A stretch of DNA of 64,000 bases, from NCBI GenBank assembly GCA_020161015.1, contig JAIUOT010000060.1, positions 1 to 64,000 on the forward strand. The letters run 5' to 3'. The position numbers were made by a program, and so were the translations under genes. The notes under the pieces were generated by a model that was not told the origin of the DNA, searched no databases, and saw nothing but the letters and a program-made list of their open reading frames with translations. This stretch comes from Actinomycetota bacterium (GTDB lineage Bacteria; Actinomycetota; Actinomycetes; Propionibacteriales; Propionibacteriaceae). Below are positions 40,583 through 62,648 of the stretch, piece by piece. Each line of letters starts with the position of its first letter. Position 1 is the first letter of the stretch.

Positions 40583-41587
40583 TCAGGCGTAGCGGCCGGA
40601 GTGGAGCACCGCCTGGTACTGGGCGCGCTCGTAGGCCGAGGAGTCCTCGACGGAGGCGGCGCTCATCGAGCCCCGCAGCTGGGCCACCCCGGTGTACTCG
40701 TGGGCCGTCATCCAGCGCTCGGCCTCGGCGAGCATGACCGCGACCGCCTCCGGCCCCCGCCGCAGGATCGCGGACGCCGTGCAGGCCACGTCGGCGCCCA
40801 CCAGCAGCGCCTTGATGATCTCAGACCCGGAATGGACGCCCGAGGTGCAGGCCAGGCCCACCTCGGGGAGCTGCCCGCGCAGGATGCCCAGCCAGCGCAG
40901 GGCGATCCGCTGGTCGTCCGGCTCGGACAGGTCGGCCCGGGCCAGCAGGGACAACCGCTCCAGGTCGAGGTCCGGGGCGTAGAACCGGTTGAACAGCACG
41001 AGGCCGTCCGCCCCGGCGTCCACCGCGAGGGCGGCGAACTTCGACATCGCCGAGTAGTAGGGCGACAGCTTCACCGCCAGCGGGATGTCGACGGCGATCT
41101 TGACGGCCTCGATCGCGGCCAGGTGCGCGAGCTCGACGTCGGCCGCGCCGACCGACGGGTCGGCGGCCATCGTGTACAGGTTCAGCTCGAGCGCGTCGGC
41201 CCCGGCGTCGGCGAGCTGGGAGGCGTAGCGCTGCCAGGAGCCGGGACGGGTGGCGTTGAGGCTGGCGATCACCGGGATCCGCAGCTGCTCCTTGGCGCGA
41301 CGCACCAGGTTGACGTGGGCACCGGCACCGAGGTCGGGCTGCTCGAGCTCGGGCAACGGGCTGCCGGAGAACTCGGCGAAGTCCTCGCCGGCGTCCATCA
41401 GTTCGGCGAGCTGGCTCTCCTCGGCCAGCACCTCCTCCTCGAACAGCGAGGGCAGCACGACCGCGGACGCACCGGCCGCCTCCAGCGCGAGCAGCGAGTC
41501 CAGCCGGCCCGTCATCGGCGATGCCGAGGCCATCAGGGGACCCGAGAGCGGCAGCCCGAGGTAGCTGGTCGAGAGATCGGGCCTCAT
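40583..41587 (-). CDS. Dihydroorotate-dehydrogenase-like flavoprotein linked to PFOR
   Basis: A 334-residue TIM-barrel FMN protein: LSTSYLGLPLSGPLMASASPMTGRLDSLLALEAAGASAVVLPSLFEEEV, then IPVIASLNATRPGSWQRYASQLADAGADALELNLY, PLAVKLSPYYSAM and ADGLVLFNRFYAPDL. The FMN- and orotate-site pattern resembles PyrD, but this subgroup is a separate family repeatedly placed beside nifJ in bacteria and cyanobacteria; its reaction is unknown. ATG overlaps the PFOR stop by 4 bp. Last gene of the PEPCK-PFOR operon. Confidence 0.88.
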   Translation of the reverse strand: MRPDLSTSYLGLPLSGPLMASASPMTGRLDSLLALEAAGASAVVLPSLFEEEVLAEESQLAELMDAGEDFAEFSGSPLPELEQPDLGAGAHVNLVRRAKEQLRIPVIASLNATRPGSWQRYASQLADAGADALELNLYTMAADPSVGAADVELAHLAAIEAVKIAVDIPLAVKLSPYYSAMSKFAALAVDAGADGLVLFNRFYAPDLDLERLSLLARADLSEPDDQRIALRWLGILRGQLPEVGLACTSGVHSGSEIIKALLVGADVACTASAILRRGPEAVAVMLAEAERWMTAHEYTGVAQLRGSMSAASVEDSSAYERAQYQAVLHSGRYA

Positions 41588-44500
41588 GGTTCCTCCTTGG
41601 GGGCGGGCAACCCACGTTCCATACCCGCCAGTTGCGAGTAATAGTGCCAGCGTTCGTCGGCGTCCGCCTGTGCGAGTTGTGCCAATTCCTCCGCGCGTGT
41701 CGGGTTCGCCCTCGCCAGCATCGCGAATCTCGCCTCGCTCTGCATGAAATCGCGGACCGGCATGCTCGGCGCGCGGCTGTCCAGGTGGAGGGGATGGCCG
41801 TCCCCGCCCGGCCGGAACCGGTACAGCGGCCAGTACCCGCTCGCGACCGCCTCCGCCTGGTGGCTCATCGAGGTGGCCATGTCGATGCCGTGGGCGATGC
41901 AGGTCGAGTAGGCGATGAGCAGGGACGGGCCGGGCCAGGCCTGCGCCTCCAGCATCGCCCGGACGGCCTGCTGCTGGTTGGCGCCGATCGCGAGCTGGGC
42001 GACGTAGACGTCGCCGTACGCCTGCGCGAGCACGCCGAGGTCCTTCTTGGCCGTGCCCTTGCCCGCGGTGGCGAACTTCGCCGTCGCGCCCCTCGGGCTG
42101 GCCTTGGACGCCTGCCCGCCGGTGTTGGAGTAGACCTCGGTGTCGAGCACGAGGATGTTCACGTTGCGGCCGCTGCCGAGCACGTGGTCGAGGCCGCCGT
42201 AGCCGATGTCGTAGGCCCAGCCGTCGCCGCCGATGATCCACACCGACTTGTCGACGAGCTCGTCGGCCAGCGAGAGCAGCCGGCGGGCCGCGTCGTCGGT
42301 CGCGACGTGGCCGGCGAGCACCGCCTTGAGGCGCGCGACGCGTTCGCGCTGGGCGGCGATGCCCGCCTCGTCGGCCTGGTCGGCGGCCAGCAGGGCGTCC
42401 GCCAGCTCGGCGCCCACCTGGGCACGCAGGACGCCGAGCAGCCGGCGGGCCTCCGCGGACTGGAGGTCCTGGGCGATGCGCATGCCGAGGCCGAACTCGG
42501 CGTTGTCCTCGAACAGGGAGTTCGACCAGGCGGGGCCCCGGCCGTCCGCGTTCGTGGTGTAGGGGGTGGTCGGCAGGTTCCCGCCGAAGATCGAGGAGCA
42601 CCCGGTGGCGTTGGCGATGATCATCCGGTCGCCGAACAGCTGGGTGAGCGTCTTGATGTAGGGCGTCTCTCCGCAACCGGAACAGGCCAGGGAGAACTCG
42701 AACAGCGGCTGGAGCTGCGCCACCCCCTTGACCTGGTCGGCGCGCACCTCGGTGCGGTCGGCCTCGGGCAGCCCGAGGAAGAACGCGAAGTTCCCCCGCT
42801 CGGCGTCGCGGTGGTCGCGCGCCGGCGCCATGTCGAGCGACTTGTGCTTGTGCTCGCTCTTGGAGCGGGCCGGACAGATGTCGGAGCAGATCCCGCACCC
42901 CGTGCAGTCGTCCGGGGCCACCTGCACCACGAGCCGCCGACCCGGGTGGGCGCGATCCTTGTACTCCTTGTGCAGGAAGCCCTCGGGGGCGCCGGCCAGG
43001 TCGACGGGGTCGGCCAGCTTGATCCGGATCGCGGTGTGCGGGCACACCACGGCGCACTTGCCGCAGTCGATGCACAGGGACGGGTCCCACACCGGCAGCT
43101 CGGCGGCGATCCCGCGCTTCTCCCACTTCGCGGTGCCCGTCGGCCACGCGCCGTCCACGGGAAGGGCGCTGACCGGCAGCAGGTCGCCCTGCCCGTGCAG
43201 CATCGCGCCGGTGACGCGCCGGACGAGGTCCCCGGCGGCCTCGGGCAACGGCGGCAACCGGTGCTCCGTGCTGGTGGGGCGCAGGGCGGCCGGCAGCGGG
43301 CGCAGCGCGGCGATCGCGGCGTCCACGGCGGCGAAGTTGCGCTCCACGACCGTGCGGCCCCTCCGCCCGTAGGTCTTCTCGACCGACTCCTTGATGGCGG
43401 CGACGGCCTCGTCGGCCGGCAGCACCCCGGAGAGGTAGAAGAAGCAGGGTTGCATCACCGTGTTGATCCGCCGGCCCAGGCCGGCCGCCTTCGCCACCGC
43501 CTCGGCGTCGATCACCCAGGTGCGCAGGCGCTTCTCCGCGATCTCGGCCTGGACCTCGACCGGCAGGTGGTCCCAGGTGTCCTCGCCGTGGGGCGAGTTC
43601 AGCAGCAGGGTGGCGCCGGGCCGGGCCACGTCCACGGTCTTCATCGTGCGCAGCAGGTCGAACTGGTGGACGGCGACGAAGTCCGCCCGGTCGACGAGGT
43701 AGGTGGCCCGGACGGGCGTCCGGCCGAACCGCAGGTGCGAGACGGTCACCGCCCCGGACTTGCGGGAGTCGTAGACGAAGTACCCCTGGGCGAAGTTGTC
43801 CGGTTGCTCGCCGATGATCTTCACCGAGTTCTTCGCTGCCCCCACGGTGCCGTCCGAGCCGAGGCCGAAGAACACCGCGGACAGGTGGTCCTCCGGTACC
43901 CGGAACGCGTGGTCGGGCGTGAGCGAGAGGTGCGTCACGTCGTCGACGATGCCGACCGTGAACCGCGGACGGGGCTCTGCGGCGGCCAGTTCGTCGAAGA
44001 CGGCCTTGGCCATCTGCGGGGTGAACTCCTTCGACGACAGGCCGTAGCGGCCCCCGATCACGCGGGGACCCGGACGGCGCGACAGCGCGACGAGTACGTC
44101 CGCGTGCAGCGGCTCGGCGGGGGCGCCCACCTCCTTGATGCGGTCGAGCACCGCGATGGCGCGGACGGTCGGCGGCAGCGCGGCCAGGAACGCCTCCACC
44201 GGGAACGGCCGGAACAGCCGGACGGTGACCAGCCCGACCTTCTCCCCACGGCGCACGAGCTCGTCGACGGTCTCGCCGAGGCAGCCGGTGGCCGAGCCCA
44301 TCACCACCACCACGCGCTCCGCGTCCGGGGCACCGGCGTAGTCGACCAGCCCGTAGCGGCGCCCGGTGCGCGCGGCCAGCTCGTCGAGCACCTCCGCCAC
44401 CACCGCCGGCACGGCGTCGTGGAAGGGGTTGGCCGCCTCCGCGGCCTGGAAGAAGGTGTCGGGGTTCTCCGCGACGCCGCGGATGATCGGGGCGTCCGGG

Positions 44501-45144
44501 GTGAGCCCGCGAGCCCGGTGGGCCAGGACGTCCTCCTCGCGCACCAGCGCGCGCAGGTCGGCCTCGGCCAGCACCTGGACGCTGTTCACCTCGTGGCTGG
44601 TGCGGAACCCGTCGAAGAAGTGCAGGAAGGGGACGCGGGTGCGCAGGGTCGCCGCGTGCGCGACGAGGGCGAAGTCGTGGGCCTCCTGCACGCTGGACGC
44701 GCACAGCATCGCCCAGCCGGTCGTGCGTGCCGCCATCACGTCGGAGTGGTCGCCGAAGATGCTCAGCGCGTGGGTGGCCAACGTGCGCGCGGCGACGTGG
44801 ATGACCGCAGGGGTGAGCTCCCCGGCGATCTTGTACATGTTGGGCAGCATGAGCAGCAGGCCCTGGGACGCGGTGAACGTGGCACCCAGCGTCCCCTTGG
44901 TGACCGCGCCGTGGAGGGCTCCGGCCGCTCCCGCCTCGGACTGGAGCTCGACGACGTCGGGCACCGTCCCCCACAGGTTGGGCCGGCCCGCGGCCGACCA
45001 CGCGTCCGCGGACTCCCCCATCGCCGAGGACGGCGTGATCGGGTAGATCGCGAGCACCTCGCTCAGGGCGTGCGCGACCCTGGCCGCCGCCTCGTTGCCG
45101 TCCAGCGTCTCCCAGCGTGTCACCGGCCCATTGTCGCCGGTCAC
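41584..45144 (-). CDS. nifJ: Pyruvate:ferredoxin (flavodoxin) oxidoreductase, classical single chain
   Basis: A 1186-residue homodimeric-type PFOR with the normal domain order. Domain I has [20 protein letters not shown]; the gamma domain reads [21 protein letters not shown]; two [4Fe-4S] motifs follow, [12 protein letters not shown] from C691 and [12 protein letters not shown] from C747; the TPP domain has [36 protein letters not shown] and [18 protein letters not shown] with the Mg-binding D974. It converts pyruvate and CoA to acetyl-CoA, CO2 and reduced ferredoxin, or the reverse. GTG 45144 overlaps the PEPCK stop (GTGA). Confidence 0.97.
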   Translation of the reverse strand: [1186 protein letters not shown]

Positions 45145-52129: not shown

Positions 52130-52816
52130 GTGATCCGTTCCAGCGTCGCCAGCGGCCACACGCTGCGCAGCCTGCGACTGCTGCTCGAGGCGTACGCCGC
52201 CTCGGAACTGCCGGAGTGGGACGCGTTCGCGCGGACGATGCACAGCGTGCACCTCGACCCCGGCGACGTGCTCTTCTCCGCAGGCGAGCGCCACCCGTAC
52301 GTGTACTACCTCGAGGAGGGCCTGCTGAAGGCCCTGATGACCAACGCGCGCGGCCGCACGATCATCCCCTTCTTCTCCGAGGAGGGCGAGATCTTCGCCT
52401 CGATGCCGGCGCTCGCGCCGGAGGGCGTCAGGCTGGTCGCCGCCCGGCACCTGCACCCCAGGGCGGAGGAGTTGGGCGCGGCACTGGCCGGGGTGACCAT
52501 CCACACGATGGTGGCGATCGAGCCGACCCTCGTCCACCGGTTCGACGTGCGGATCATCGAGCGCCTGGCCGGCCGGCACCCCTCCTGGTCGCGGATGAGC
52601 AACGCCGTGACGACGCTGTACGCGATCAGCCTCCAGGCCGACGCCGCGGCCCTGCGCAACTCCGCGGAGCAGCGCTACCGGGACCTCCTCGCCAACCACC
52701 CTGACCTGATCGCGCGGATCAGCCGGCGGGACCTCGCCTGCTTCCTCAACGTCACCGACGTGGCGCTGGGACGCATCGCCAAGCGGGTGGAGGCCGGAGC
52801 CGTCGAGTCGGATTGA
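52130..52816 (+). CDS. Crp/Fnr-family transcriptional regulator
   Basis: A 228-residue regulator: cyclic-nucleotide-binding-like beta roll from about 25 to 120 (LDPGDVLFSAGERHPYVYYLEEGLLKALMTNARGRTIIPFFSEEGEIFASM), a long dimer helix, and a C-terminal helix-turn-helix (ISRRDLACFLNVTDVALGRIAKRV). The RAxS cAMP signature is absent, and there is no N-terminal FeS cysteine cluster, so the ligand is unknown. GGGAGG precedes the GTG at 52130. Confidence 0.88.
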   Translation: MIRSSVASGHTLRSLRLLLEAYAASELPEWDAFARTMHSVHLDPGDVLFSAGERHPYVYYLEEGLLKALMTNARGRTIIPFFSEEGEIFASMPALAPEGVRLVAARHLHPRAEELGAALAGVTIHTMVAIEPTLVHRFDVRIIERLAGRHPSWSRMSNAVTTLYAISLQADAAALRNSAEQRYRDLLANHPDLIARISRRDLACFLNVTDVALGRIAKRVEAGAVESD

Positions 52817-54821: not shown

Positions 54822-54945
54822 CGCGGTTCATGCCCCCGGGGGTTTGTTCTGGGGAGAGAATGGTGTCTCGTGTTGCGGTGGCACACCTGCCCATTGACGG
54901 ATCAGGGGCGCCCCGCTGCCGAGCCCGACTCAAGGAAGAGTGTGC

Positions 54946-57900
54946 ATGTCCGCGAATACCGTCCGCTTCCCCGGCGTCCCCGACGTGATCAACGGCAACG
55001 GGGCCGTCGCCTATGTCATGAAGCACGTCTGCGGCGGGGTGATCGGCTACCCGATCACCCCGTCCACCGAGATCTCCGAGATCTTCGAGGCCGCCCGCGC
55101 CGACGGCCAGCTCAACGTCTGGGGTCGTCACCCCTTCTTCGTCGAGACCGAGGGTGAGCACTCCGCCCAGAGCGGCGCCCTCGGGGCCGCTCTCGTCGGC
55201 GGCAACTTCATCTCGAACGCCTCCTCCAGCCAGGGGATCCTGTACGGCCTGGAGTCGCACTATGTGACCGTGGGCAAGAAGATCGGCGGCTTCGTGCTGC
55301 AGGTGGCCGCGCGTGTGGTCACCAAGCACTCGCTCAACGTGATGGCCGGCCACGACGACGTGTACGCCCTCCTGCCGACGGGCTACACCATCATGTTCGG
55401 CTCCAACGCCCAGGAGGCCGCCGACCTCGCGGCCATCTCCTACCGCACCGCTTCGCTGTCGCTGATCCCCGTGGCCAACGCCATGGACGGCTTCGCCACC
55501 AGCCACGTGATGGGTGAGGCCCTGCTGCCCGAGCCCGAACTGCTGCGCACCTACCTCGGCGACCCTGCCGGACGGATCCCGTGCCCCACCGTCGCCCAGG
55601 AACTGCTCTTCGGCGCCAAGGGCCGGGTGTTCCAGCTCCAGCGCTACCTCGACCGGCACGCCGACGACTTCCACGCCGACGACCTGGCCGCCCTGCGCGG
55701 CTGGCTGTCCGCCCGCGGCCCGCGGGTCGAGGCCGACAACGACGGCGAGCTGGTCGAGCAGACCCTCGACCACGTGCCCGCCCCGCTCCAGGCGCAATGG
55801 CGCCGCCAGTGGCTCAACGCCTGGCCGGCGGGCACCCGCCAGCTCGTCCCCGCCCTCGTCGACCCGCACAACCCGGGCCTCACCGGGCCGGTGCAGAACC
55901 AGCCCGACTTCCAGGCGGGCTCTGCCGACCACCGCACCCACTTCGCCAGCGCCGTGCCCGCCCTGGCGCGCCAGGCGATGGCCGAGTACACCGCCCTCAC
56001 CGGACGCGAGTACGCCCCGGTGATCGCCTACGACTGCGAGGACGCCGACTACGTGATGGTCGGCCTCGGCTCGATCACCGACGACGTCCGCGCCGTCCTG
56101 CCGCACCTGCGCGCCCAGGGGCTCAAGGTCGGCGTGGTGTCGGTCAAGCTCCTCCAGCCGTTCCCGGAGGCCGAACTCGTCGCGGCGCTCGGCAACGCGC
56201 GGGCCGTCACCGTGCTGGAGCGGTCCGACGACACCGCGCTCACCCGCCTGGTCACCCAGGCCCTCTTCAAGGCCCGCGCCAACGCGGAGGCCGGCGACGA
56301 CACCCGCTACCCGGGCGTCCCGGGCATGGCGGCACTGCCCGCGATGACCACCGCGATCTTCGGCCTCGGCGGCCACGACATCCAGCCGCGCTACCTGGTG
56401 TCGGCCTTCGAGAACATGGCCTCGGCGCAGCCGACCCCGCTGGTGTACCTCGGCTCGCAGTTCTTCACCGCGAACCCCACCCCCGCGGTGGCGGCGATCC
56501 AGTCACGGCTGCGCGCGGCGTACCCCGAGACCGAGCTGATGGCGCTCCAGACCCGGCCGAACCCGGCGATCCTCCCCGACGGCGCCCTGCGCATCCGCTT
56601 CCACTCGGTGGGCGGCTACGGCACGGTCGCCACCGGCAAGCTGCTCACCGACGTGCTGTCGTCGATGCTCGGCATGCACTCGAAGTCGGCGCCCAAGTAC
56701 GGGTCGGAGAAGTCGGGGGCTGCGACCAACTACTACATCACCCTCTCCCCCGAGCCGATCCTGCTCACCAACGCCGAGCTCGAGGACGTCGAGGTCGTGG
56801 TGGCCCCCGACCACCAGGTGTTCTCCCACACCAACCCGCTCAAGGGCCTCGTCGAGGGCGGCACCCTGATCATGCAGTCCGACCGCGAGCCGCTCGAGGT
56901 CTGGCGGACGCTGCCCGCCTTCGCCCGGAGGGTGATCCGCGAGCGCCGGATCCGCTTCCTGGTCGTGGACGCCTTCGCGATCGCCCGGGCCCACGCGCCG
57001 AACCCCGAGCTCGAGACCCGCATGATGGGCATCGCCTTCATCGGCGCCATCCTGGGCCACGTCACCGGGGCCCGTGACGCCGCAGCGGTCGAGGCCGAGG
57101 TGCGCGCAGAGCTGGCCAAGAAGTTCGGCCGGCGGGGCGAGACGGTCATCGAGGCCAACATGGCCGTCGTCCGCGAGGGCATGAAGGCCTTCGTCGTCGA
57201 GTACGACGACCCGGCCTTCGCCGCCGTCGAGGCAGACCCGGTGCTGGCCGGCGTCCGCGCCTCGCTGTCGGCGGCGATGACGCCGACCGTCGACCGGGAG
57301 CGCACCAGCGCGCTGTTCGACCCCGCCTACTACGAGGAGATGATGGCGCGACCGTTCCGGGAGGGCACCATCGACGAGGCCCCGGTTCTGCCCGGCACCG
57401 GCCTGTTCATGCCCGTGGGCACGGGTGCGGCCAAGAACAAGGGCATCTTCCGGCGCACGGTGCCGGTCTTCGACGCGTCCGCCTGCACGGCGTGCATGGA
57501 GTGCGCGCTGGCCTGCCCGGACAACGCCATCCCCAACACCGGCCACGAGATCTCCGACCTGCTCGGTGCCGCCATCGACGCCACCGACCTCACCGAGGCT
57601 GACCGCGCCTCGTGGTACGGGCTGGTGCCGGACTGGGCGGCCGGCGTCCGCGCGGGGTTCCGGGCGGTGCCCGCGGCCACCGACCTGGCCGCCGTCGCGC
57701 GCGAGGCCGCGTCCGTGCTGCCGGAGGAGAAGGCCGCCCAGCTCGGCGCCGTGCTCGCCGCCCTTGCCGCCTTCCCGGTGGCGCGGACGCGTCCGCTGTT
57801 CGATGCGGCGGAGAAGCTGGAGCCGGGCAGCGGGGTGCTGTTCTCCGCGGTCGTCGACCCCTGGAAGTGCACCGGGTGCCTGCAGTGCATCGAGGTGTGC

Positions 57901-59922
57901 GGGCCGGACGCCCTGTCGACCGCCGACCAGGACGACGTGCTGCTGTCGATGCTGGAGACCCGGTTCGAGCGGCTCACGAAGCTGCCCGACTCGCCGGCAC
58001 GCCTCACCGCAGACGCCACCGCACCGGGCGGCGACATCAAGCGGATCCTGCTCAACCGCTCCGACTACTACTCGATGACCGGCGGCCACGGCGCGTGCCG
58101 GGGCTGCGGCGAGGTGACCGCCATTCACCTGCTCAACTCCCTCAGCCACCGCATCGGCGAGGACCGGCGGCAGGCGCACCTGCTCGAGCTGGACGAGATC
58201 CTCGACCGGCTCGGCACCCTGCGCGAACGGCTGCCGGAGGGCCCGCGCAGGGAGCGCGTCGGCGCAACGATGGCCGAGCTCGAGCGCCGGCTCTACCTCT
58301 ACGAGTCCGGGCCGACCGGCGACGGGCCGTCGTCGACGGTGATGGCGAACTCCACCGGGTGCTCCAGCGTGTACGCCTCGACCGTGCCGTTCTCGCCGTA
58401 CCTCGACCCGTGGGTGAACGGGCTGTTCCAGGACGCGCAGCCGCTGGCCGTCGGCATGTACGAGGGCCTGGCGTCCGAACTGGTCGGCGAGGTCCGAGCG
58501 CTGCGGATCGCCCAGCTCGAGCTGGACGGTACGTACGACAGCGAACTACACGACGCCCAGCTGGCCACGTTGTCCTGGCGTGACTTCACCCCTGCCGAGC
58601 GGTCGCTGATCCCGGTGGTGCTCACCATCAGCGGCGACGGCGCGGCGTTCGACATCGGCTTCGGCGCCCTCTCGCGGGTGCTCGCCGGCGGCACGCCGAT
58701 CAAGTCGCTCGTGCTCGACACCGGTGGCTACTCCAACACCGGCGGCCAGGCGTCCACCGCGAGCTTCGCCGGCCAGGACGCGGACCTCGCCCGCCACGGC
58801 AGCGCCCACGCGGGCAAGCAGGAGCGCCGCAAGGAGCTCGGCCTGCTGGCCGCGTTCCACCCCGGGGTGTACGCCTGCGCGACCGCGACGGCGTTCCACG
58901 GCCACTACCTGCGCGCCACCGCCGACCTGCTGGCGTACAACGAGGGAGCGGCGCTGATGATCGCCTACGCGCCCTGCGACACCGAGAACGGCATGCCCGA
59001 GGACCTCGCCAACGCGCGGTCGCGGCTCGCCGTCGAGAGCCGGATGCACCCGTTGTTCGTCCACGACCCGCGGCGCGGCGACACCATCGCCGAGCGGTTC
59101 AGCCTCGACGGCAACCCCGAGCCGGAGGGGCTGTGGGCGGAGACGACCCTCACCTACCGCGACGACCGGGGGCGGCTCCAGCTGCTCACCGTGCCGCTGA
59201 CCCCGGCCGACTTCGCCATCGGCGAGGTGCGGTTCGCCAAGCAGTTCCGCTGGCTGGCCAACTACGAGGAGGCGGGCGCCGTGCCCATCGCCGAGTACGT
59301 CGACCTGCCGGTGCACCAGCGGGCGGGCCGCACGCCCTTCGTCTACACCACCGACCGCAAGCGACGGCTGGTGAAGATGGCGTGCTCGCCCACGATCGTC
59401 GCCCTCGTCGAGGACCGTCGCCAGAACTGGCGGACGCTGCAGTTCCTCGCCGGCCAGTCCGAGGCCCTGCTCTCGGCGCAGCACCGCTCGGAGCTCGGTG
59501 AGTGGACGGCCCGGTACAGCGACGCCCTCGCCTCCCGCGAGAACGCCCTCGACACCATCGCCAAGGCGATGGCGGACCTGGCCACCGCGAGCGGGGCGCC
59601 GGCCGGCGGCGCGCTGCACCTGGGCCTGTTCGGGGCCCCGATGGCGGCGCCCGCCACCGAAGAGCCGGCCGCGACGGCCACCGCCGTCGGCGACCGTCCG
59701 ATCTGGCTCGACCCCGCCGACCTGGCCAAGTGCAACGACTGCGCCACCTGCTACCAGGAGCTGCCGTCGCTGTTCGAGAAGGCCACCATCGTGGTGGACG
59801 GGGCCTCGCGCACCGTCGGCAGGATGCGGCCGGACGCCCTCGAGGGCCTGGAGCTGACGGCGGACACCGTCGCGCGGATCACCCGGGTCAAGAACACCTG
59901 CGACGCGGAGATCATCCAGTGA
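54946..59922 (+). CDS. Extended 2-oxoacid:acceptor oxidoreductase (PFOR-like) with C-terminal ferredoxin module
   Basis: A 1658-residue single chain, about 470 longer than PFOR. Order: pyrimidine domain (GYPITPSTEISEIFEAA), domain II (VMVGLGSITDDVRAVLPHLRAQGLKVGVVSVKLLQPF), gamma domain (FHSVGGYGTVATGKLLTDVLSSMLGMHSKSAPKYGSEKSG), ferredoxin motifs C847/850/853/857 and C975/978/981/985, TPP domain (GGHGACRGCGE 1046-1056; SGDGAAFDIGFG with D1231), then a tail with C1596/C1599/C1602 and C1652. Substrate pocket suggests pyruvate or another 2-oxoacid. ATG 54946 has GGAAG 8 nt upstream; its stop overlaps the Nfn-like gene (GTGA). Confidence 0.92.
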   Translation: MSANTVRFPGVPDVINGNGAVAYVMKHVCGGVIGYPITPSTEISEIFEAARADGQLNVWGRHPFFVETEGEHSAQSGALGAALVGGNFISNASSSQGILYGLESHYVTVGKKIGGFVLQVAARVVTKHSLNVMAGHDDVYALLPTGYTIMFGSNAQEAADLAAISYRTASLSLIPVANAMDGFATSHVMGEALLPEPELLRTYLGDPAGRIPCPTVAQELLFGAKGRVFQLQRYLDRHADDFHADDLAALRGWLSARGPRVEADNDGELVEQTLDHVPAPLQAQWRRQWLNAWPAGTRQLVPALVDPHNPGLTGPVQNQPDFQAGSADHRTHFASAVPALARQAMAEYTALTGREYAPVIAYDCEDADYVMVGLGSITDDVRAVLPHLRAQGLKVGVVSVKLLQPFPEAELVAALGNARAVTVLERSDDTALTRLVTQALFKARANAEAGDDTRYPGVPGMAALPAMTTAIFGLGGHDIQPRYLVSAFENMASAQPTPLVYLGSQFFTANPTPAVAAIQSRLRAAYPETELMALQTRPNPAILPDGALRIRFHSVGGYGTVATGKLLTDVLSSMLGMHSKSAPKYGSEKSGAATNYYITLSPEPILLTNAELEDVEVVVAPDHQVFSHTNPLKGLVEGGTLIMQSDREPLEVWRTLPAFARRVIRERRIRFLVVDAFAIARAHAPNPELETRMMGIAFIGAILGHVTGARDAAAVEAEVRAELAKKFGRRGETVIEANMAVVREGMKAFVVEYDDPAFAAVEADPVLAGVRASLSAAMTPTVDRERTSALFDPAYYEEMMARPFREGTIDEAPVLPGTGLFMPVGTGAAKNKGIFRRTVPVFDASACTACMECALACPDNAIPNTGHEISDLLGAAIDATDLTEADRASWYGLVPDWAAGVRAGFRAVPAATDLAAVAREAASVLPEEKAAQLGAVLAALAAFPVARTRPLFDAAEKLEPGSGVLFSAVVDPWKCTGCLQCIEVCGPDALSTADQDDVLLSMLETRFERLTKLPDSPARLTADATAPGGDIKRILLNRSDYYSMTGGHGACRGCGEVTAIHLLNSLSHRIGEDRRQAHLLELDEILDRLGTLRERLPEGPRRERVGATMAELERRLYLYESGPTGDGPSSTVMANSTGCSSVYASTVPFSPYLDPWVNGLFQDAQPLAVGMYEGLASELVGEVRALRIAQLELDGTYDSELHDAQLATLSWRDFTPAERSLIPVVLTISGDGAAFDIGFGALSRVLAGGTPIKSLVLDTGGYSNTGGQASTASFAGQDADLARHGSAHAGKQERRKELGLLAAFHPGVYACATATAFHGHYLRATADLLAYNEGAALMIAYAPCDTENGMPEDLANARSRLAVESRMHPLFVHDPRRGDTIAERFSLDGNPEPEGLWAETTLTYRDDRGRLQLLTVPLTPADFAIGEVRFAKQFRWLANYEEAGAVPIAEYVDLPVHQRAGRTPFVYTTDRKRRLVKMACSPTIVALVEDRRQNWRTLQFLAGQSEALLSAQHRSELGEWTARYSDALASRENALDTIAKAMADLATASGAPAGGALHLGLFGAPMAAPATEEPAATATAVGDRPIWLDPADLAKCNDCATCYQELPSLFEKATIVVDGASRTVGRMRPDALEGLELTADTVARITRVKNTCDAEIIQ

Positions 59923-62648
59923 CCGGGCCGTCGTTCAGCAACCAGCTGGGCCTGCTGGAGCGCCGGCTCGTCGCCGACCCGCGGGCGTTCCGCGAGCTGT
60001 TCACCGCCGACGGCATGGAGGCCGTCGCGTGGGAGTTCCGCCAGGAGGAGCTCGGCGCGAAGTTCACCCGGCAGCTGTGGGAGGTGCTCAGCCGCGACGA
60101 CGACTCCAGCCGGCTGCTGATGCGTTTCCTGTGGCAGCTCCCGCTGGGCAAGAAGCGGATGTTCGTCCGGGCGCTCGACGAGCACCTGTCCGGGCGCTAC
60201 CCGATGTTCTCCGGCCTCAGCGAGAACTGGCCGGCGGGCAACGCGATCAGCCCCTACATCCGCAAGCCGAGCGAGCGCAGCGAGGACTTCGAGCTCGTCA
60301 ACAAGGGGTTCCTGGGCTACATGGACCTCGGCTTCACCCGTCGTGACGTCGAGCTGTTCGTGTGGCTGGAGGCGCTGCGCGACAAGCAGTGCGCCGAGGC
60401 GCCGTGCGAGCTCGGCGTCCTGCTGGCCGGGCACCGGGAGCCCCAGGGCGGCTGCCCGGTGCAGATCCACATCCCGAAGATGTTCGAGCTGATCGGCACC
60501 GGCCGGTTCCGCGAGGCGCTGGAGATGCTCGAGTCGTGCAACCCGCTGCCCAACGTCACGGGACGGGTCTGCCCGCAGGAGCTCCAGTGCCAGGGCATGT
60601 GCATCCACAAGCAGTCGATGACCATCGGCCAGCTGGAGTGGTTCCTCCCCGAGTGGGAGAAGCTGGCCGACCCGCAGGCCACCACCCGCCGCTTCGCGGG
60701 CATCCGCGACCCGTGGGCGACGGCCGTGCGTCCCCCGATCGCGATCGTCGGCTCGGGACCGTCCGGGCTGATCACCGCGTACCTCCTGGCCGCGGAGGGC
60801 TTCCCGGTCACCGTGTTCGAGGCGTTCCACGAACTGGGCGGCGTGCTGCGCTACGGCATCCCGGAGTTCCGGCTGCCGAACCAGCTCATCGACGACGTGG
60901 TGGAGAAGATCCGGCTGCTCGGCGGCCGGTTCGTGACCAACTTCGTGGTGGGCAAGACCGCGACGCTGGAGCAGCTCGCCGACGCCGGTTTCGCCCGGGT
61001 GTTCGTCGGCAGCGGCGCCGGGCTGCCGCGGTTCCTGAACGTGCCCGGCGAGCACCTGCTGAACGTGATGAGCGCGAACGAATTCCTCACCCGGGTCAAC
61101 CTGATGCAGGGCCACCGCGGCGACCACGAGACGCCGCTGCCCGCGGTGGCCGGCAAGCAGGTGCTGATCATCGGCGGCGGCAACACGGCGATGGACGCCG
61201 CGCGCACCGCCCGCCGGCTCGGCGGCCTCGTCACGATCGTCTACCGGCGGACGAGGGCGGAGATGCCCGCCCGCGTGGAGGAACTGGAGCACGCGCTGGA
61301 GGAGGGCATCGAGCTCGCCGTCCTGCGCTCACCGGTGGAGTTCAGCGGAGACGAGACCGGGTTCGTCACCACGGCGACCGTCGAAGTGATGGGCCTCGGT
61401 GAGCCGGACGCGTCCGGGCGGCGCCGTCCGATCGCCACCGGCCGGACCGCGGAGATGCCCGCCGACCTGGTGATCATGGCGCTGGGCAACTCCGCGAACC
61501 CGATCATCAAGGATTCCGAGCCCCGCCTGACGGTCTCGGCGCAGGGCACGATCGAGCAGGTCGGCGACGGCTCGAAGGAGACCTCGCTGGCCGGCGTCTA
61601 CACCGGCGGGGACGCCGCGCGCGGCGGTTCCACCGCCATCCGGGCTGCCGGGGACGGCCAGTCGGCCGCGCGCGAGATCGTCCGCACCCTCGCCCGGTTC
61701 GAGGCGGAGGAGGTCACCGCGCGGGTGGCCCGCGCCCTGGCCTACACCGAGCTGGCCGGGGAGATCCCCGTGATCGTGGCCAAGCAGCACCTGAGCGTGG
61801 GCATCGAGGAGTTCACCGTCCGCGCACCGGTGGTGGCGCGCACCGCGCAGGCCGGGCAGTTCGTCCGCGTCCTGCCCTCGCCGGACGGGGAGCTGATCCC
61901 GCTCACCCTGGCCGACTGGGACGCCAAGGCGGGCACGATCACGCTCGTGGTGCAGAACATGGGCACCAGCACGATCCAGATCAACGCGATGCGGGCGGGC
62001 GAGGCGCTCGCCGGCGTCGCCGGGCCCCTGGGGCGTCCCAGCGACCTGCGCCGCCACCCCGACGACGCCACCGTGGTCTTCACCGCCGGCGGGCTCGGCC
62101 TGCCCCCGGTGTACCCGATCATGCGTGAGCACCTGCGGCTGGGGAACCACGTGACGCTGATCTCCGGCTTCCGCAGCGCCGACCTGATGTTCTGGGACGG
62201 CCCCGAGGAGCGGATCGGCCGCATCAAGGCCGAGTTCGGCGACCAGCTCGAGGTGATCTACGCCACGAACGACGGCTCCGTCGGCGTCCAGGGGTTCGTC
62301 ACCACGCCGCTGGAGGCACTGCTCAACGCCGCCCGCGACGGGGCGGGCCGCCGCATCGCAGAGGTGGTGACGATCGGGCCGCCGATGATGATGCGGTCGG
62401 TCTCCGACCTCACCCGTCCCTACGACGTGCACTGCGTGGCGAGCCTGAACTCGATCATGGTGGACGCCACGGGCATGTGCGGCGCCTGCATGGTTCCGGT
62501 CACCGAGGACGGGAAGCTGGTGCGCAGGCACGCCTGCATCGACGGTCCGGAGATCGACGCCCACAGCATCGACTGGGACAAGTTCCTGCCCCGGTTCGGG
62601 CTGTTCCGCGCCCAGGAGCAGGAGAGCCGCTCGCGCCACGGGCTGTGA
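59919..62648 (+). CDS. NfnB-NfnA fusion: NAD(P)H:ferredoxin oxidoreductase with novel N-terminal domain
   Basis: A 909-residue chain. Residues 1-160 match nothing that I know. Residues about 165-620 are GltD/NfnB-like: FeS cysteines C179, C218, C224, C228 (NVTGRVCPQELQCQGMC), FAD site GSGPSGL from 278, NADPH site GGGNTAMD from 419, and TGGDAARGGSTAI. Residues about 625-909 are NfnA/DHOD-B-like: SVGIEEFTVRAP, GGLGLPPVYPI, and a [2Fe-2S] site with D849, C854, C857 and C873 in the spacing of NfnA. Nfn couples ferredoxin and NADH to NADP by flavin-based bifurcation. GTG 59919 overlaps the PFOR-like gene. Confidence 0.9.
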   Translation: MTGPSFSNQLGLLERRLVADPRAFRELFTADGMEAVAWEFRQEELGAKFTRQLWEVLSRDDDSSRLLMRFLWQLPLGKKRMFVRALDEHLSGRYPMFSGLSENWPAGNAISPYIRKPSERSEDFELVNKGFLGYMDLGFTRRDVELFVWLEALRDKQCAEAPCELGVLLAGHREPQGGCPVQIHIPKMFELIGTGRFREALEMLESCNPLPNVTGRVCPQELQCQGMCIHKQSMTIGQLEWFLPEWEKLADPQATTRRFAGIRDPWATAVRPPIAIVGSGPSGLITAYLLAAEGFPVTVFEAFHELGGVLRYGIPEFRLPNQLIDDVVEKIRLLGGRFVTNFVVGKTATLEQLADAGFARVFVGSGAGLPRFLNVPGEHLLNVMSANEFLTRVNLMQGHRGDHETPLPAVAGKQVLIIGGGNTAMDAARTARRLGGLVTIVYRRTRAEMPARVEELEHALEEGIELAVLRSPVEFSGDETGFVTTATVEVMGLGEPDASGRRRPIATGRTAEMPADLVIMALGNSANPIIKDSEPRLTVSAQGTIEQVGDGSKETSLAGVYTGGDAARGGSTAIRAAGDGQSAAREIVRTLARFEAEEVTARVARALAYTELAGEIPVIVAKQHLSVGIEEFTVRAPVVARTAQAGQFVRVLPSPDGELIPLTLADWDAKAGTITLVVQNMGTSTIQINAMRAGEALAGVAGPLGRPSDLRRHPDDATVVFTAGGLGLPPVYPIMREHLRLGNHVTLISGFRSADLMFWDGPEERIGRIKAEFGDQLEVIYATNDGSVGVQGFVTTPLEALLNAARDGAGRRIAEVVTIGPPMMMRSVSDLTRPYDVHCVASLNSIMVDATGMCGACMVPVTEDGKLVRRHACIDGPEIDAHSIDWDKFLPRFGLFRAQEQESRSRHGL

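Follow-up and report, generated by a model that had tools for sequence, protein, structure and literature searches.

The DNA analysed here, called the window throughout, is a stretch of 64,000 nucleotides from an Actinomycetota bacterium of the Propionibacteriaceae (contig JAIUOT010000060.1 of assembly GCA_020161015.1), and it carries two overlapping genes whose products resemble pyruvate:ferredoxin oxidoreductase (PFOR) and the transhydrogenase Nfn. Gene 1 (54946..59922) encodes a long PFOR-like 2-oxoacid oxidoreductase of 1658 residues with a predicted fused ferredoxin; its frame, which is supported by domain matches, is open throughout from the ATG at 54946 to the TGA stop at 59920-59922, with zero internal stops. 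A Shine-Dalgarno-like AAGGAAGA (54932..54939) precedes it, the 3′ end lying six bases 5′ of the ATG. Gene 2 (59919..62648), likewise open throughout, begins with a GTG at 59919 and encodes a single-chain Nfn-like protein of 909 residues (NF009415/PRK12779), such that the two genes share the four bases GTGA (59919..59922). The reading frames confirm this overlapping arrangement and both lengths, as they were given in the original prediction. All of these features are on the + strand, as are those described below within the two genes.

Domains and cofactor sites of the two proteins

Gene 1 matches the Pfam models POR_N, PFOR_II and POR as well as 4Fe-4S models. The POR_N thiamine diphosphate (TPP) domain, in which alignment finds the YPITPS and VAAR motifs retained, covers residues 31-198 (55036..55539). 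It is followed by the POR (gamma) domain at residues 556-746 (56611..57183), by 4Fe-4S motif 1 with Cys 847/850/853/857 (57484..57516) and motif 2 with Cys 975/978/981/985 (57868..57900), and by the proximal-cluster ligands Cys 1051/1054/1139/1344 together with the TPP beta domain (58096..58977), which NCBIfam places at residues 1225-1372, in keeping with the fold. These canonical cluster cysteines are invariant, 12/12, in an alignment of 64 full-length rows, into which two genomes were entered twice (L107/L117 and L118/L136), and they are common to an ordinary-length PFOR from the same genome. By these motifs gene 1 is a member of the PFOR superfamily, with predicted ligands for three 4Fe-4S clusters and a predicted TPP site present. 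Its score against the NCBIfam PFOR equivalog TIGR02176, 365.9 bits, lies below the curated cut-off of 911.35, and in a residue comparison aimed at the substrate, the residues following the conserved Arg are unlike those of canonical PFOR. A structure search with the C-terminal 479 residues recovered the PFOR beta domain and matched nothing for the extension beyond it. Open reading frames (ORFs) of about 750-800 residues in Tetrasphaera (L128, 8733-9635) and Rhodoplanes (L130, 6221-7084) match approximately residues 1169-1605 of the long PFOR at 25-30%, a region that comprises the TPP domain and the extension, and it is possible that they represent a separate protein sharing this extension.

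That gene 1 encodes an extended PFOR was recognized in the original prediction, and the extension is real; what had been overlooked is that it includes a fused ferredoxin domain. Likewise, the statement that there is no separate ferredoxin gene is correct as it stands, but a ferredoxin is predicted to be present nonetheless, fused to the PFOR at approximately residues 1592-1658. In the AlphaFold model of gene 1, an Ala/Pro-rich linker, residues 1551-1581 (59596..59688), is disordered, with a predicted local distance difference test score (pLDDT) below 50, and leads to a confidently modelled, single-cluster ferredoxin-like domain (59719..59919), whose Cys 1596, 1599, 1602 and 1652 are also invariant in the 64 aligned rows. 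The tail motif C-x2-C-x2-C...C is found in 80/81 long PFORs, incomplete sequences counted, the exception (L040) being a broken frame. The last cysteine is preceded by a spacing of 49 residues in 78 sequences and of 35 in two, L134 and L135, where it is misaligned in the full-length alignment and aligned in an alignment of the tails. A profile built from 39 tails matches the monocluster ferredoxin 7m1o (E 5.3e-6), and at E<=0.1 Fer4_15 matches 39/39 of these tails and Fer4_13 38/39. In L134, a relative linked to Rnf genes (see below), the ferredoxin domain clears the Fer4_13 cut-off, with 30.6 versus 24.5 bits. From the tail sequences and the model we conclude that the long PFOR has its own putative ferredoxin, on a flexible arm.

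Gene 2 matches NF009415/PRK12779 across residues 6-908, where its 1594.2 bits exceed the curated threshold of 1519. Both of its halves align with Pyrococcus furiosus NfnI, chains L and S, and an AlphaFold model (60 sequences, mean pLDDT 82.9) superimposes on the large and small NfnI chains with template modelling scores of 0.87 and 0.89, by target length. This bears out the claim that gene 2 joins an NfnB-like and an NfnA-like half. Pfam, alignment and fold agree in delimiting the two: the NfnB/GltD-like half spans residues 158-592 (60390..61694) and, also by its motifs, has two 4Fe-4S sites, FAD and an NADP(H) site, and the NfnA/PyrK-like half spans residues 619-908 (61773..62642) and has FAD, an NAD(H) site and a 2Fe-2S site. 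The latter half keeps the Asp/Cys3 2Fe-2S motif and the FAD/NAD site as in bifurcating Nfn, with the Asp ligand candidate in D849-C854-C857-C873 (62463..62537) being invariant in 82/82 rows. Equally invariant are the NADP(H) motif YRRT (82/82), the b-FAD motif GGVLRYGIPEFRLP (60/60) and, in the GRVCPQExQCx3C part of the second published Nfn cluster motif, the GRVCPQE, the QC and the last Cys (82/82). Thus, as far as motifs can tell, the cofactor sites of both proteins are present. The first approximately 150 residues of gene 2 (59919..60368), a possible docking site, are helical in the model and conserved; residues 1-31 are modelled with low confidence, and residues 1-150 gave zero Pfam matches at E<=0.001. 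What did not hold is the notion that a single-chain Nfn is a new fusion, since it is an already named family, both as NF009415 and as 'Pattern C' in a review (PMC6405883).

Linkage, distribution and Rnf-linked relatives

The gene pair recurs across genomes; co-occurrence was a check named in the original prediction. A one-genome-per-species scan using the gene 2 alignment, which relied on two seed patterns and misses relatives without either, yielded 299 relatives, of which the best 80 were kept, and in 75 of these 80 loci a long PFOR gene of the same orientation immediately precedes the Nfn-like gene. The same order in 75/80 loci rules out chance adjacency or an assembly error. Sixty of the paired PFORs are full-length and 15 are incomplete, L040 and L095 because of broken frames and the others because they are cut by contig ends. 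With the starts chosen here, the two genes overlap by four bases in 14 pairs and are separated by gaps of 41-212 bases in 60, L040 being left out of the count. The pair occurs in Actinotalea, Cellulomonas, Tetrasphaera and Kineosporia among the Actinomycetota and in Propionivibrio, Accumulibacter, Rhodoferax, Rhodopseudomonas, Rhodoplanes and Paludibacterium among the Pseudomonadota. Among 30 genomes of the window's genus, 18 have the long PFOR, 24 the Nfn-like gene and 16 both, and the genes are adjacent in 16/16 of the latter; in each of the two PFOR-only genomes, a contig ends inside the PFOR gene.

Gene 2 is rare in the sampled genomes. At E<=1e-150 it was found in 1/296 genomes of an Actinomycetota sample, namely the window's own; in an order-level sample, 3/97 genomes, all of the window's genus, match NF009415 at this threshold, two of them over the family cut-off, and 0/14 control genomes do so. 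A Pseudomonadota sample has the long PFOR (E<=1e-100) in 11/398 genomes, a count that includes the centre genome, chosen as a known carrier. Downstream of nine of these 11 lies the Nfn-like gene, and the other two are in rnf operons. Pairwise distances of protein 1 and protein 2 run in parallel (Mantel r 0.93 for 62 pairs, with 0/999 permutations as high), though host kinship alone would also produce a correlation.

A larger operon was considered and dropped: beyond the pair, clustering of neighbouring ORFs gave, among the clusters listed, a single loose cluster at 19 or more loci, with scattered distances, both strands and antisense frames included, and no widely recurring identified neighbour. 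The remaining clusters listed are inside the two genes or common to few loci. A plasmid search with gene 2 returned six records, none with 80% coverage.

A sequence search, independent of the gene neighbourhood, led to a divergent clade of long PFORs, 34-42% identical depending on the stretch compared, which has the same kind of ferredoxin tail. Its members are L134 and L135 from the Pseudomonadota sample, a second copy in a Rhodocyclaceae metagenome-assembled genome (L100, 7411-12351), and two on large plasmids, of Persicobacter psychrovividus (L139, Bacteroidota) and Gemmatirosa kalamazoonensis (L140, Gemmatimonadota), the latter two being the only 2/42 plasmid records with at least 80% query coverage. 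In 5/5 cases rnfC, D, G, E and A lie directly downstream of the PFOR, except that the L100 record ends within rnfE, such that A is unseen there; rnfB is upstream in four and downstream in Persicobacter. Pfam confirmed the Rnf subunits of L134, and L100 carries an Nfn-linked and an Rnf-linked module side by side. This suggests that the tethered-ferredoxin PFOR is retained together with a consumer of low-potential electrons that is dedicated to it, whatever that consumer may be, with the reservation that five cases are few. In the window's own genome, RnfC gave zero matches over the cut-off and one below it, and Rnf was therefore dropped as a partner there.

A proposed electron path and its alternatives

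We consider it probable that the pair constitutes a dedicated 2-oxoacid-to-NAD(P)H module, in which a tethered-ferredoxin oxidoreductase feeds an Nfn-like reductase that confurcates with NADH to NADPH. This reading is based on the conservation of the operon and of the cofactor ligands, on the ferredoxin domain fused to protein 1, on the parallel distances and on the long PFOR kin tied to Rnf. The original prediction of a dedicated two-gene module is thereby upheld, given the adjacency across two phyla, the parallel distances and the fact that both proteins keep their catalytic and cofactor motifs intact. Protein 1 would use thiamine diphosphate and CoA in oxidizing and decarboxylating its 2-oxoacid, which is most likely pyruvate, and single electrons would pass through its three 4Fe-4S clusters before loading a fourth, in the C-terminal ferredoxin domain. 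This domain, on its flexible linker of about 30 residues, would serve as a swinging arm that replaces free ferredoxin and docks on protein 2 at the NfnB half, possibly with help from the N-terminal helical region. The NfnB half would take up the electrons at its two 4Fe-4S sites and its b-FAD, where they would confurcate with electrons that come from NADH by way of the NfnA half, and NADP+ would be reduced. If the enzyme is confurcating, the net reaction would be 2-oxoacid + CoA + NADH + 2 NADP+ -> acyl-CoA + CO2 + NAD+ + 2 NADPH. Arm movement, docking, complex, substrate, direction and confurcation are the elements of this path that we infer.

Several observations weigh against this reading. 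With respect to the arm, the window's own ferredoxin domain, taken alone, stays under the Pfam cut-offs (17.4 versus 22.4 bits), and a 96-residue piece of the window's tail had zero Pfam matches at E<=0.1. With respect to protein 2, the published first-cluster motif RCx2Cx4Cx3CPV occurs in 0/82 aligned sequences. The spacing at this place is QC-x4-C-x15-CPV in 78/82, with x14, x16 or x18 in the other four, and 77/82 have one cysteine fewer at the first NfnB 4Fe-4S site, an extra Cys lying in between in five. Judging from these alignments, the site at which ferredoxin electrons are predicted to enter is remodelled across the gene 2 family, Nfn-only genomes included, and electron entry is apparently unlike that of studied Nfn. 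Bifurcation is therefore not to be assumed for gene 2.

This bears directly on the view that protein 2 is a plain, non-bifurcating reductase, in which case the pair would be a 2-oxoacid:NAD(P)+ oxidoreductase with the NfnA half as a second outlet, comparable to phenylglyoxylate:NAD+ oxidoreductase or to the 2-oxoglutarate:NADP+ enzyme of Azoarcus. Besides the remodelled low-potential entry site, the appearance of subunits of NADH-dependent phenylglyoxylate dehydrogenase among the weaker NCBIfam matches of gene 1 speaks for it. Bifurcation cannot be read from sequence according to the review (PMC6405883), and in Clostridium acetobutylicum an NfnB homologue that stands alone is reported to be a strictly NADP(H)-dependent ferredoxin-NADP+ reductase (PMC9365771). 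However, protein 2 retains the 2Fe-2S motif with its Asp, the two FAD halves and the two nucleotide sites of Nfn, and for a plain reductase one half would suffice; we regard this explanation as rather unlikely, and continue to favour the confurcating module.

A further point is that the window's genome also holds the pyruvate dehydrogenase (PDH) E1, two copies of PntB and two other PFORs. The module is therefore not the sole route to NADPH or acetyl-CoA in this genome, and the idea that PFOR is the only route to acetyl-CoA is ruled out by PDH E1. One of the other PFORs is canonical (1186 residues, with an EKR domain) and is encoded in the window at 41587-45144 on the − strand, about 10 kb from the long PFOR. 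The third, of ordinary length, is found elsewhere in the genome (L129, 4464-9799, contig C37), directly after a GltD-like flavoprotein that has a 4Fe-4S tail (PRK12771), which gives this genome a second and independent case of a PFOR paired with such an NAD(P) enzyme. As a separate observation, a proteobacterial metagenome-assembled genome (L092, 1-4522) has a split pyruvate oxidoreductase (gamma, alpha, beta) and a PRK12771 flavoprotein with a PorD-like tail directly upstream of its PFOR/Nfn pair.

Finally, the Nfn-like gene stands alone in 5/80 loci and in 8/24 carriers of the window's genus, several of these Nfn-only genomes being incomplete, and the Nfn-like protein therefore can probably act with other electron donors. 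An obligate pairing is weakened by the same cases. In a tree of 83 rows (quick method, midpoint root), five of six Nfn-only sequences form one clade (support 100) within the operon carriers, the sixth being a long branch elsewhere. Because the Nfn-only clade nests within operon carriers, the tree suggests that lone Nfn-like genes result from later loss of the PFOR, which is likelier than their being the original state. The existence of genomes with the Nfn-like gene and without the long PFOR would also fit mere co-regulation, whereby both proteins serve anaerobic growth and exchange electrons via ordinary free ferredoxin without contact. So would a gene located two genes upstream of the operon (52130-52816, +), whose product has a cyclic-nucleotide-binding domain and is probably Crp/Fnr-like. 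This gene fits with, and proves nothing about, the further idea that the module may be for anoxic growth. Co-regulation is nevertheless improbable in our view, considering that the ferredoxin arm is fused, that its cysteines are invariant, and that it is just these two genes that are closely linked across two phyla.

The direction of the reaction may be questioned as well, since Nfn and PFOR are reversible in principle. NADPH, bifurcating to NAD+, might drive a reductive carboxylation that converts acetyl-CoA, or some other acyl-CoA, into a 2-oxoacid, for biosynthesis or as an electron sink. Several carriers belong to Rhodopseudomonas, Rhodoplanes and Cellulomonas, genera of phototrophs or fermenters, which can be counted in its favour; yet nothing in the sequence speaks for it specifically, and the oxidative direction is more natural in the Rnf-linked clade. 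We therefore hold the reverse direction to be very improbable compared with the oxidative module.

Taken together with the Rnf-linked relatives, the oxidative module allows a broader proposal, which we put forward tentatively, as a possibility somewhat short of an even chance. The tethered-ferredoxin oxidoreductase might be a portable low-potential donor for a range of exchangeable NAD(P)-reducing machines, its electrons passing to a bifurcating flavin or an ion pump and bypassing the free ferredoxin pool, the window's version being a pyruvate-driven NADH-to-NADP+ transhydrogenase. Its partners, which form parts of this one joint claim, would be the single-chain Nfn in Actinomycetota and Pseudomonadota, and the ion-pumping Rnf in Pseudomonadota, Bacteroidota and Gemmatimonadota; the Rnf-linked relatives render the idea of a partner swap directly testable. 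Textbook PFOR releases its electrons into a shared ferredoxin pool, from which Nfn and Rnf draw. Where a PFOR carries its own ferredoxin and is kept in one operon with a single NAD(P)-reducing consumer, the arrangement suggests that the electrons are, in some bacteria, channelled rather than pooled. Such a module could explain how PFOR chemistry proceeds without loss of reducing power in relatives of Cellulomonas, Propionivibrio, Accumulibacter and Rhodopseudomonas. If true, it would also provide a function for the uncharacterised Pattern C class of Nfn and a compact part for NADPH engineering.

Comparison with known systems

Fused Nfn and PFOR are already known. The NfnAB enzymes of Thermotoga maritima and Pyrococcus furiosus (4YLF, 5JCA) resemble gene 2 in that both halves align, the fold is the same and the D-C3 2Fe-2S motif is shared. 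They consist of two chains and have the motif RCx2Cx4Cx3CPV, whereas gene 2 encodes one chain without it; moreover, the alignment with 5JCA begins at residue 148 of gene 2, and the region N-terminal to it is thus extra. The PFORs of Desulfovibrio africanus and Moorella thermoacetica (1B0P, 6CIN) have their domains in the same order as gene 1 and likewise provide ligands for three 4Fe-4S clusters. At 1658 residues versus 1171-1232 for these enzymes, gene 1 adds large inserts, the C-terminal linker and the ferredoxin.

Enzymes that couple 2-oxoacids directly to NAD(P) are known, too. In the pyruvate:NADP+ oxidoreductase of Euglena, a PFOR is coupled directly to NADP+ reduction via a fused flavoprotein of the P450-reductase type, while in the present pair the Nfn-like protein is separate and the PFOR has a ferredoxin arm. 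The phenylglyoxylate:NAD+ (PadEFGHI) and 2-oxoglutarate:NADP+ oxidoreductases of Azoarcus use a GltD-like NAD(P) flavoprotein and separate small subunits, and are not known to have an NfnA half. In ANME-1 archaea, PFOR genes are reported to be clustered with an FrhB6 paralogue (PMC9012536), and thus likewise sit next to the gene of a flavoprotein dedicated to a different hydride carrier. That flavoprotein is F420-type, and neither an Nfn nor a fused ferredoxin is mentioned in the passages considered (PMC9012536).

In open-licence PubMed Central literature, we found no description of a ferredoxin-tethered PFOR, of its near-fixed pairing with Pattern C Nfn or of the Rnf-linked sister clade. The tether of the ferredoxin and the change of partner among relatives appear to be new. 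The closest precedent is Pattern C itself, described in the review by Liang, Huang and Wang (2019, PMC6405883). There, the single-chain form with NfnB before NfnA is reported from Actinobacteria and Alpha- and Gammaproteobacteria, its length exceeding that of the clostridial fusions by about 200 residues, and the fused patterns are called uncharacterised in their properties. PFOR is listed among the neighbouring genes in the legend to its Figure 2, such that the figure may already show the pairing in some species, while the sections considered name no long PFOR partner (PMC6405883). Pattern C shares its half order, length and phyla with gene 2; the operon rule and the departure from the published first-cluster motif come from the present analysis.

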